Notes under the pieces: generated by a model
Databases searched by the model: none
The model's input: only the letters and a program-made list of their open reading frames with translations
What the model was told of the DNA's origin: nothing
Position numbers and translations under genes: made by a program
Shown here: positions 1,990 to 5,100 of the stretch, piece by piece
Layout: each line of letters begins with the position of its first letter
Position numbering within the stretch: the first letter of the stretch is position 1
From: a virus
Reading direction: 5' to 3' (one strand)
Length of the DNA: 24,029 bases
Virus record (IMG/VR): IMGVR_UViG_3300030102_003782
Location: 444-24,472 of that record

Positions 1990-2174
1990 TGGAGGAAAAA
2001 TATGCACAAATACTAGAAGTAGCTAAAAGTTTAGACAAAGTTAAAAGCTACATTTTTGAAACAGGTAAACCAGATGTTTACTCTGCAAAAGAAAAGGAGA
2101 TAGATGAAGCAATAGATGTTATTGACGACTATCTGCAACGAAATTTAGACACACTACTAGGTAAGGAGGAGTAA
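1989..2174 (+). CDS. Hypothetical 61-aa acidic helical protein
   Basis: The start overlaps the exonuclease stop as TAATG, and its own stop overlaps the next start the same way, with GGAGG just before that junction. The protein is strongly acidic and almost all helix-forming, beginning MEEKYAQILEVAKSLDKVKS and ending in DDYLQRNLDTLLGKEE. Heptad-like spacing of hydrophobics suggests a short coiled coil or helical hairpin. No family is recognised. Tight coupling to the exonuclease suggests it is made in a fixed ratio with it, but no function follows from the sequence. Confidence 0.65.
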   Translation: MEEKYAQILEVAKSLDKVKSYIFETGKPDVYSAKEKEIDEAIDVIDDYLQRNLDTLLGKEE

Positions 2175-3112
2175 TGAATAAAGCAAAAATTTTAAGAAAA
2201 ATACTACGTAACGAAAGAACCATGACACAAATACTTGAAAGGCTTGAAAGATATCGAATTAATTACGAAGAACTTGAGGGAGAAGTAAAACTTTTATATG
2301 CAGACTTGCACATGCCCTACACATCTTCCGTTAATCTTCTGGATCTACCCTTTCTTGAAAAACTTACAGGTAAAAATTCTAAAAGAGACATATTAATCAT
2401 GAAGGAGTGGAATGAAAATCTCGATAGCACTTTACAATCTATTGCTGATAAATATGATCTAACTAGAGAAAGGGTAAGACAGATTTTAGAAAAATGGGAA
2501 GATATTGGATATCACATAAGAGAACCTAAAGATAGAACTAAGTTTCGCAGAAAAAAAGAACTTGATTCTGTTCATGAAGAAATTGTTAATGCTATTGAGT
2601 CTTGTTATGGAACACCTAAATTTTCAAAGTGGAAAAAAAGTTTCTATAAAAAAGCTAACTTATGGCAAAGGAGATATTTTAAAGAAATTTTGCATAAATA
2701 TTGGAAAGAAGGAAAAGCAGATCCATTACTGTTCGTAGATGTTGAAAATATCAAACTTAAAAAAAGGCACTATAAAATTTTAAAGATGAAAAAATCTGGC
2801 ATGCAGTTAAAAGATATAGGAAAAAAACTAGGCATATCAGAGCAATTAGTTGCTTATGCGATTAGAGATTTGAAACAGGCACATCTACTTGCCCATGAAA
2901 GTATAACTCAAGTTGAATCTGTATCTTTATCTAAAGAGGAAGTTGATAGAAGGCTTAACAAAATGAGACAAAAAGTTATTGAAGGCATAGCTTTGAGTAA
3001 TTTAGATCAAGAAGGAAATATAAAATACGATATTGGAACTAGCAACGCTACTGCCATGCATTTTGTTAGACGACACTTTTTAAAACCTCTCAAATTAGGA
3101 GGTCAAAAATGA
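2174..3112 (+). CDS. Sigma region 4-like HTH regulator with two helix-turn-helix segments
   Basis: This 312-aa basic protein carries a stretch at about residues 84-110 (STLQSIADKYDLTRERVRQI) that closely follows the sigma-70 region 4 recognition helix pattern, in which TRERVRQI is the hallmark. A second HTH lies at about 198-234 (MQLKDIGKKLGISEQLVAYA). I see no counterpart of sigma region 2, which melts and reads the -10 box, so it is not a complete sigma factor. It may be a DNA-binding adaptor that redirects host polymerase, a transcription activator for late genes, or a terminase small subunit-like HTH protein. Lysine-rich segments (120-180) fit DNA contact. The start overlaps the previous stop (TAATG after GGAGG). 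Confidence 0.7.
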   Translation: MNKAKILRKILRNERTMTQILERLERYRINYEELEGEVKLLYADLHMPYTSSVNLLDLPFLEKLTGKNSKRDILIMKEWNENLDSTLQSIADKYDLTRERVRQILEKWEDIGYHIREPKDRTKFRRKKELDSVHEEIVNAIESCYGTPKFSKWKKSFYKKANLWQRRYFKEILHKYWKEGKADPLLFVDVENIKLKKRHYKILKMKKSGMQLKDIGKKLGISEQLVAYAIRDLKQAHLLAHESITQVESVSLSKEEVDRRLNKMRQKVIEGIALSNLDQEGNIKYDIGTSNATAMHFVRRHFLKPLKLGGQK

Positions 3113-3378
3113 CTCAGTATTCATCTCAAGTAGAGGCACAACAAGCTTTACTAGAAGCTGAAGAATGGGCAAAACAAATAGATTGGATTATTACCGACAA
3201 CTTAGATAATACTAGTTACGGTTTCAATTACCCAAGAGAAGAAAAATTAGGTGTATGCCATTGTATAAAATACAACTCAGGTATTGTTAAATGCGAAAAC
3301 ATTTATACAGGTAAAATTACTTACTTTGGAAAAAGGTTAGAGGGTAGGGAATTATTAGATAAATATTTGTTCGGTTGA
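3109..3378 (+). CDS. Hypothetical 89-aa protein
   Basis: The ATG overlaps the stop of the HTH gene as ATGA, with GGAGG about six bases upstream. The protein opens with a helical, Gln/Ala/Glu-rich segment (SSQVEAQQALLEAEEWAKQI), followed by a beta-like Tyr/Gly-rich half with CHC and one more Cys, too sparse for a clear metal site. No family is recognised. It is the last gene of the first plus-strand operon. Its final codons and UGA stop are part of the interlocked stem structure at 3373-3407, so mRNA folding could protect its 3' end or affect termination. Confidence 0.65.
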   Translation: MTQYSSQVEAQQALLEAEEWAKQIDWIITDNLDNTSYGFNYPREEKLGVCHCIKYNSGIVKCENIYTGKITYFGKRLEGRELLDKYLFG

Positions 3379-3446
3379 GGGTAGCTCGCTCAACCAACAA
3401 GCTACCCAACGTCCAGGAAATGAATCTTATAGGAGAGTCCTGAACG
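3373..3446. other. Interlocked stems: possible pseudoknot plus a third hairpin
   Basis: The convergent gap is filled by structure. Stem A pairs GGTTGAG (3373-3379) with CTCAACC (3389-3395). Stem B pairs GGGTAGCT (3379-3386) with AGCTACCC (3400-3407), and GTT/AAC (3374-3376 / 3408-3410) can extend it past a GA bulge. The arms alternate A-B-A'-B', so they either form an H-type pseudoknot or exclude each other as a switch. With G3379 unpaired, the loops would be about 1, 3 and 4 bases. Stem C pairs CGTCCAGGA (3410-3418) with TCCTGAACG (3438-3446), 8 of 9 pairs. There is no T tract, so it is not a standard terminator. Both strands can form the same stems. Confidence 0.6.
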
Positions 3447-3447
3447 C

Positions 3448-3915
3448 TTAGAATGGGGGAGGTGGATTCTCTTCCGCATCACTACTCGCAAGATTTTCTA
3501 ACTGTTTGAAAGTTAGTATCTTGTTTCTGTAGGATGTTCTTTTTTGTCCTTCCTGATCCAACCAATCTTCTTCAACTTTATCTAAAGCAATCTGAACTTT
3601 TTTACCAATAAGCTCATCTTCCTTTTCGATCTGCTCTTTAAATCCTATGGCTTTTAAAAGTTTTGTCCATCTTTGTGTAGCAATATTTTTGTAATCTTCT
3701 TTATCGCTCCACAAGTTAAAGTATTCTGTGACATCTTTAAACTTGCCGTCAGCAACTTGGAAAACAACTTTAAAGCTAGTGTTACCAGCTTTACTAACAT
3801 GCTCCATAGCTTCTAAAACTTTACAATCATAGTCTCCCTTAGGAGCCACCTCTGGCCCTAAAGGAGCTTGAAGATCTAGATCACCCATAAATTCAACATC
3901 TTTGAATAACGACAT
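3448..3915 (-). CDS. DUF669-type phage ssDNA-binding protein with SSB-like C-terminal tail
   Basis: This 155-aa protein resembles the phage DUF669 group, which sits beside annealases and replication genes. The body (about 20-135) alternates beta strands and charged loops, as an OB-fold-like protein would, with segments such as KGDYDCKVLEAMEHV and TSFKVVFQVADGKFKDVTEYF. The last residues, DAEENPPPPF, are an acidic stretch ending in Pro-Phe. This copies the logic of the bacterial SSB tail (acidic, ending PF), which docks partner proteins. Its start overlaps the stop of the Sak4-like gene (TAATG after GGAGGTAGC), so the two are made together. Inference: it coats single strands from the exonuclease and loads the annealase. 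Confidence 0.75.
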   Translation of the reverse strand: MSLFKDVEFMGDLDLQAPLGPEVAPKGDYDCKVLEAMEHVSKAGNTSFKVVFQVADGKFKDVTEYFNLWSDKEDYKNIATQRWTKLLKAIGFKEQIEKEDELIGKKVQIALDKVEEDWLDQEGQKRTSYRNKILTFKQLENLASSDAEENPPPPF

Positions 3916-4658
3916 TAGCTACCTCCTTCTGCTGATTTTACTTCTTGTACTTTTGGAGCAGAAGAAATAAAACCTAGTTTGGTAATTAAGTTTGTTAGGT
4001 TTGGTTGTTCAAACGGTTCCAACAAACCACTTCTATCTTTTGCATTAAACCCTTGTCCAATTTCTGTTTGCAACCATCTTTCTCTAGTAAGGTTGCCCTC
4101 ATCATCTTGTCTTTCAATGACTCTTAACGCTAAGACCTCATCAAAAAAGTAAGGGATAGATTGACCAAGTTTGGCTCCTACCATTTTTGGTTCATGAACA
4201 AGAGATCCATCTACATTCAGTTTCTCTTCTTTACAAAGAAAAATAACATGCATCTGCAAATCTCTGAAAGCTCTCATAACATTAGTAACAGTTTCTTGAA
4301 CATTACCATAAGCCATTCTGGCATCTTTATGTTTAGCTTTCTCAGCAGATAGTAAAAGTTCACTAATCTCTGAAATAGAATCTAGGCATACCGTGTCGTA
4401 CTTGCCTTTAAGTTTTCCGTTTCTAAGAGAGTTGTGAAGCTCCATAACTTCTGCTGCTTCTTTTACTTCTATTGCATCAATGTTTGGTTTGTCCTTAATT
4501 GATAGCAATCCAGCTTCTGCACTTATGACAAGTTTCTTGCCAGGAGCGGTAGAACAAAGATATGTTTTACCAGATCCAGAAGCCCCATACACTAGCACTT
4601 TAGCGCCTTGGTCTTGAACCATAGCACTAGGGCTAACTATATTATCTTCTATACTCAT
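3915..4658 (-). CDS. Sak4-like RecA-fold ATPase (single-strand annealing protein)
   Basis: This is a 247-aa P-loop protein with Walker A GASGSGKT (25-32) and a Walker B-like strand ending TVCLDS (89-94). Its size and layout match the phage AAA_24 / nucleotide-binding protein group that includes Sak4, a reduced RecA-like annealase stimulated by its own SSB. Sak4 genes are known to lie beside SSB genes, as here. It would pair complementary single strands in phage recombination or break repair. The start at 4658 has a very strong Shine-Dalgarno (GGAGGTGA, minus strand 4670-4663). It is first in a two-gene operon read away from the dyad at 4688-4711. A plain AAA DNA-handling ATPase is the alternative. 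Confidence 0.75.
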   Translation of the reverse strand: MSIEDNIVSPSAMVQDQGAKVLVYGASGSGKTYLCSTAPGKKLVISAEAGLLSIKDKPNIDAIEVKEAAEVMELHNSLRNGKLKGKYDTVCLDSISEISELLLSAEKAKHKDARMAYGNVQETVTNVMRAFRDLQMHVIFLCKEEKLNVDGSLVHEPKMVGAKLGQSIPYFFDEVLALRVIERQDDEGNLTRERWLQTEIGQGFNAKDRSGLLEPFEQPNLTNLITKLGFISSAPKVQEVKSAEGGS

Positions 4659-4681
4659 AGTTCACCTCCGTTAAAAAAGTA

Positions 4682-4717
4682 TTGCGTGAGTGTACTATAT
4701 TAGTTACACTCCGTAAA
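4682..4717. promoter_or_regulatory. Divergent control region: dyad with facing promoter candidates
   Basis: An imperfect dyad has arms GAGTGTACTA (4688-4697) and TAGTTACACTC (4701-4711), loop TAT and one bulged T. Each arm ends in a -10-like TACACT. On the plus strand TTGCGT (4682-4687) lies 17 bases before TACACT (4705-4710). On the minus strand TTTACG (4717-4712) lies 17 bases before TACACT (4694-4689). The two boxes match consensus only moderately. The arrangement lets one protein bound to the dyad block both directions. The HTH gene starts at 4741, so self-control is likely. The dyad is seen; the promoters are inferred. Confidence 0.5.
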
Positions 4718-4740
4718 TCTTTTTTTATCGGAGGAGTAAC

Positions 4741-5100
4741 TTGTCACAAACGCATAGCGAAGTCTGGAAAGCAAACTACTATTTTAGAACAGCTATTATT
4801 GCAGCAAGAGAACTCAAAAAAATGGAACGGCTTAACATCAAGCCACAAAACACAAACAGGAAGGTAAAAAGTATGACATTAAGAGAATGGATAGAGTTCT
4901 ATGGAATGAAAGCTTCTGCTGAATTATTTAATGTTTCAGAGTCAACCGTGAAAGCTTGGAGATATGGTTATAGATTGCCATCTATAAAACAGGCACAAAA
5001 AATTATACAGGCAACAGACGGAAAGATTGGCTATGAATCAATGTATGGAGCGATAAAAGATATAGTTGATCAAAAGGATGTTTCAGCTAAATCTATCTGA
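4741..5100 (+). CDS. HTH regulator (Cro/repressor-like), TTG start
   Basis: The 119-aa reading uses TTG 4741, seven bases after GGAGG. An internal ATG at 4873, with AGGAAGG ten bases upstream, would give a 75-aa form holding the whole HTH (MTLREWIEFYGMKASAELFN); both could be made. The HTH is at about residues 52-85, with turn and recognition helix near FNVSESTVKAWRYGYRLP. SESTVKAWRYG follows the Cro / lambda-repressor pattern. The N-terminal 44 residues are basic. Position directly beside a dyad operator suggests it regulates its own operon and the opposing Sak4-SSB operon. It overlaps the primase gene by 23 bases. A replication-initiator accessory is an alternative. Confidence 0.7.
   Translation: MSQTHSEVWKANYYFRTAIIAARELKKMERLNIKPQNTNRKVKSMTLREWIEFYGMKASAELFNVSESTVKAWRYGYRLPSIKQAQKIIQATDGKIGYESMYGAIKDIVDQKDVSAKSI

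Follow-up and report, generated by a model that had tools for sequence, protein, structure and literature searches.

In E. coli, Rho-terminated mRNA is trimmed by exonuclease to a stem-loop (PMC9927376). RNA structures have also been described at genes for single-strand DNA binding proteins: the pseudoknots of the STAXI motif lie close to DNA-handling genes, ssb among them (Weinberg et al. 2010, PMC2864571), and in phage T4 the gene 32 operator is a pseudoknot in the 5' leader of the gene (PMC535899). The element described here, located at the end of a phage ssb gene, resembles these systems in part. It shares with the Rho-trimmed mRNAs a stable hairpin lacking a U-tract, which would be the trimmed 3' end. 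Like the T4 operator, it links RNA structure to the SSB gene of a phage, but at the 3' end of the gene. Unlike the element, STAXI is a tandemly repeated motif.

The window, that is the whole stretch of DNA analysed, covers 24 kb out of a 24.5-kb uncultured virus record. A DNA search did not match it to cultured phages, and we found no tRNA or tmRNA in it; the kin of its structural gene are those of the Pelagibacter phages HTVC023P/027P and of other phages. The gap at 3379-3447 separates an 89-aa gene on the + strand from a convergent ssb gene on the - strand, which comes after a gene for a Sak4-like annealing protein. The ORF of the 89-aa gene, for which phrog and Pfam profile searches gave no family match, ends at 3378, and its TGA lies inside stem A, an overlap that the original prediction had noted; the ssb ORF ends at 3448, the edge of the element. 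The features are as follows:

3109-3378, + strand: 89-aa gene, convergent to ssb (from the ORF listing; present in four relatives)
3448-3915, - strand: ssb, gene for a phage single-strand DNA binding protein, DUF669 (phrog_378, E 5.9e-14; PF05037 above cut-off)
3915-4658: gene for a Sak4-like annealing protein
3373-3407: interlocked inverted repeats, stems A and B (from reading the sequence and from randomised windows)
3373-3379 and 3389-3395: arms of stem A, GGTTGAG / CTCAACC, perfect
3379-3386 and 3400-3407: arms of stem B, GGGTAGCT / AGCTACCC, perfect
3366-3401, + strand: hairpin A, UUUGUU-c-GGUUGAG / CUCAACC-AACAAG, loop GGUAGCUCG
3379-3407, - strand (ssb sense): hairpin B, 12 contiguous pairs, two of them U.G, loop GGUUG
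3409-3418 and 3438-3447, - strand: hairpin C, 10 pairs (two G.U), 19-nt loop, directly after the ssb stop codon

Reading the sequence confirmed the two perfect stems with alternating arms that had originally been pointed out, and likewise the third hairpin following them (3409-3447); no U-tract adjoins any stem, either in the sequence itself or in a terminator scan, also as first described. Stems A and B have G3379 in common, so only 7+7 bp can be formed together. Interlocked pairs of this size within 36 nt occurred by chance twice in 30 randomised 24-kb windows (~0.07 per window), and the interlocked geometry taken alone is only mildly unusual.

Fold strength is stronger evidence than repeat geometry that the element is not due to chance. 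The - strand is predicted to fold at -32.9 kcal/mol, compared with -18.6 +/- 3.0 for shuffled sequences (z -4.7; none of 2000 as low), and - strand 90-mers across the element come second among the 3192 such segments of the window. Structure on the + strand is no more than moderate (z -2.7; 22 of 2000 shuffles as low). Pair probabilities, obtained by partition-function folding of 200 bases, were 0.99 for the core of hairpin A on the + strand and 0.85 for its extension (UUUGUU/AACAAG), ~0.85 for hairpin B on the - strand against 0.01 on the +, and 0.99 for hairpin C on the - strand against 0.73 on the +. Four of the pairs in hairpins B and C are G.U, so that only the - strand can form either hairpin in full; in hairpin C, the G.U pairs formed there replace mismatches. 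Searches of Rfam, including STAXI, gave no match in the window at gathering cut-offs, and a permissive search gave matches at chance level only.

A pseudoknot or a two-state switch, as the original prediction had it, is not the best reading of the locus: hairpins A and B are not formed together, and the dominant one differs by strand, A on the + and B on the -. On the + strand, hairpin A forms first and is ahead of hairpin B by 2.6 kcal/mol (-16.2 versus -13.6 kcal/mol); on the - strand, hairpin B is ahead by 7.5 kcal/mol (-22.3 versus -14.8 kcal/mol). A switch between the two hairpins on one transcript would fit the mutual exclusion of stems A and B in nested folds, but on each strand the hairpin formed first is also the more stable one, and there is no adjoining downstream gene in the sense direction to be regulated. 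We give such a switch hardly any credence.

A pseudoknot on the - strand appears sterically unlikely by hand estimate, with a zero-length loop for crossing stem B and no nucleotides left. On the + strand, at the 3' end of the 89-aa gene, an H-type pseudoknot is sterically just possible after one pair is dropped; the candidate has a stem GGTTGA/TCAACC, a loop-tail stem GGTAGCT/AGCTACC and loops of 1, 3 and 4 nt. Its energy of ~-14.8 kcal/mol, a rough hand sum, competes with the -16.2 of hairpin A; however, the six-pair extension of hairpin A takes up these loop bases, there is far less structure on the + strand than on the -, and stem A would be covered by the ribosome at the stop codon. With all known copies of the element identical, covariation speaks neither for nor against the pseudoknot, which we consider unlikely. 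A -1 frameshift was also considered and rejected: the ~24 codons for which the -1 frame stays open beyond the stop are within what chance would give, and the stem is not preceded by a slippery heptamer.

Hairpins B and C provide one feature of an intrinsic terminator, a stable GC hairpin near the gene end (z -4.7). A U-rich tract right after the stem is absent, the sequence after hairpin B being UCAACCGAACAAAU, and the terminator scan was blank here on both strands. It might also be proposed that the site works at the DNA level, as a folded single strand in recombination, replication or packaging, given that ssb and Sak4 are neighbours and that the - strand as DNA is likewise more stably folded than its shuffles (z -2.5). 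Against this, the full stems need G.U pairs, favouring RNA, the strand folds far less stably as DNA (-13.5) than as RNA (-34.5), and relatives carry transcription terminators at the same site, so that a DNA-level site seems very improbable.

The exact element is present in only four other IMG/VR contigs, all near-identical, of which three are 92-95% identical to the window. Relatives sought through the two + strand genes were the same contigs only, with no intermediate relatives; only one lineage is known to carry the element. All copies are identical over 3373-3447, leaving no compensating changes to compare in either stem. In each of three relatives 6-8% of sites differ in the neighbouring + strand gene and 2-3% in ssb, and a 147-bp stretch (3361-3507), which includes the likewise invariant 3' coding end of ssb, is unchanged across the three in a compared region where 9% of sites vary. 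Only one invariant run in the 5.9 kb compared is longer. Because 6% of the 75-bp segments in the phage group are equally invariant, conservation alone is a weak argument.

Two other regions stood out in this comparison. The longest difference-free stretch among the relatives (4627-4778, 152 bp) sits in the gap where sak4 and the next + strand genes diverge, with a repressor-like gene from 4741, and probably holds promoters or operators. The gene at 2174-3112, which has sigma-70 region 4 and HTH matches, differs from two relatives by more than 200 changes over 935 bases, with surroundings far less divergent, as if it had been swapped by recombination.

We gathered Sak4-ssb pairs from IMG/VR and read what follows each ssb stop codon in the DNA. 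All 83 distinct downstream sequences had a structure 3' of ssb: 29 had a hairpin with a U-tract, 43 a pseudoknot without a canonical terminator, seven (within L025-L037) a GC hairpin with a short U-run, two (L019 and L020) a 10-bp hairpin without a U-run, and two were of the window's own type. The Sak4 tree nests the window within a clade of 17 rows made up of terminator and hairpin phages (95/90), most of which have U-tract terminators 3' of ssb; the pseudoknot phages form one separate clade (100/100). The exact place of the window is unsure owing to its long branch. As the structure types track few clades, only a small number of independent changes lie behind the observation that pseudoknot and terminator exclude each other. 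L019 and L020 present a U-less end structure near the window's lineage, with a hairpin CCTACTAC.../...GTAGTAGG and a long loop after the ssb stop.

The intrinsic terminators of related phages (e.g. L010, L022 and L061) resemble the window element in lying directly 3' of ssb, in having a GC-containing hairpin and in often facing a convergent gene. They differ in having a U-tract after a short-loop stem, whereas the window has two hairpins in the ssb sense, an overlapping one on the other strand and no U-tract. With the window nested in the terminator and hairpin clade, the element occupies the site where its nearest kin end the ssb transcript, and this shared site is the main argument that it may have a 3'-end role. 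Functionless chance repeats in a short gap could draw on the frequency of interlocked repeats in randomised windows and on that of equally invariant stretches; this explanation is rather unlikely, given that no shuffle reached the fold strength and that the repeats are placed exactly at a site structured in all relatives examined.

The structure found in the sister clade is a conserved H-type pseudoknot directly 3' of ssb, which we found in uncultured phages at 183 loci, many of them overlapping fetches of one contig. Examples are:

L079, 4232-4281: pseudoknot RNA
L130, 3712-3761: pseudoknot RNA
L225, L231, L247 and L272: further examples

P1 is variable (CGGCU/RGUCG, AGGUGC/GYGCCU, AGGCU/GGYCU and others), and so is an inserted hairpin, P3 (GAGC/GCUC, GAGUC/GACUC, GAGAUA/UAUCUC, GGAAGUG/CGCUUCC, GGGU/ACCC). 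In about 49 distinct forms (55 were listed, six of which are antisense chance hits), P1 and P3 have changed on both sides of the stem. The pair in the middle of P1 is almost invariably G.U or U.G and so identifies the RNA strand as that of the ssb sense. An invariant GCUAGG in the loop pairs with an invariant CCUAG tail; as the pairing does not vary, this stem is supported by position and complementarity and not by covariation, and the searches that found the pseudoknot required these letters themselves. The gene following the pseudoknot is convergent at 79 loci and co-directional at 50, often starting 6-7 bases later. Since the next gene varies and ssb is constant, the function of the pseudoknot is probably tied to ssb. 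In L242-L281 (e.g. L247 near 2310-2390) 6-7 bases lie between the end of the pseudoknot and the ATG of a co-directional gene (MKPQSAKQKGRKLQQWVRDKL...). There is no obvious Shine-Dalgarno sequence, and the pseudoknot could therefore also affect how this gene is translated.

The pseudoknot had no match in Rfam, and its strict pattern was not found in a collection of bacterial and archaeal genomes; from its sequences, it looks like a new RNA motif. The window element resembles it in coming after ssb, in having G.U pairs in the ssb sense and in lacking a canonical terminator, and the pseudoknot, too, often abuts or overlaps the end of a convergent gene. They differ in sequence and architecture, the pseudoknot having a P1 of 5-6 bp and the inserted P3 (GCUAGG...CCUAGC, L071-L284), and they belong to separate clades. 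The GCUAGG loop and CCUAG tail flanking P3 are absent from the window, and the pseudoknot model R1, which is weak even on true distant members, did not match there. Judged by sequence, the window element is not a member of the pseudoknot family.

With moderate confidence, we interpret the window element as an RNA 3'-end element without a U-tract that sets a stable 3' end of the ssb mRNA; the opposing gene would have a weaker counterpart. The ssb transcript would fold hairpin C directly past its stop codon and then the 12-bp hairpin B, and the transcript of the opposing gene would fold hairpin A at its own stop codon. The inverted repeats would be interlocked because two opposite messages share 35 bp of DNA and their hairpins overlap. 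The lack of a U-tract makes canonical intrinsic termination at the hairpins improbable; termination would likeliest take place further downstream, by Rho or by collision of the convergent polymerases, and 3'-to-5' exonuclease trimming would then halt at hairpin B in the ssb mRNA and at hairpin A in the opposing one, with a presumed benefit for ssb. Alternatively, on the ssb mRNA the element may be a termination site instead of an exonuclease barrier. A nuclease-blocking 3' end or structured RNA had been among the options of the original prediction, and it is the best supported of them by virtue of the - strand fold and the site shared with the terminators of kin; the exonuclease block itself we infer.

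By analogy with T4, where gp32 nucleates on an mRNA pseudoknot (PMC535899), the phage SSB might bind its own message at the 3' end and so regulate itself. The element adjoins ssb, and relatives have a conserved pseudoknot at the same site; however, the T4 site is in the 5' leader, and most close relatives here have plain terminators, which need no SSB. We regard autoregulation by this element as quite unlikely. A broader and doubtful proposition is that these phages keep a regulatory site 3' of ssb whose occupant can change from one RNA structure to an unrelated one (terminator, conserved pseudoknot or the strand-specific interlocked hairpins of the window), the structured ones doing more than ending the message, for instance through SSB binding that tunes its own synthesis.

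The 3'-end reading of the window element would mean that the same 35 bp can serve two convergent phage genes, giving each strand an end hairpin of its own where a terminator would otherwise stand. The pseudoknot family is more interesting than the window element, which is a modest variant of known 3'-end structures: a covariation-supported pseudoknot outside Rfam, present in many environmental, largely marine-type phages, makes a role of RNA at the ends of ssb genes testable.
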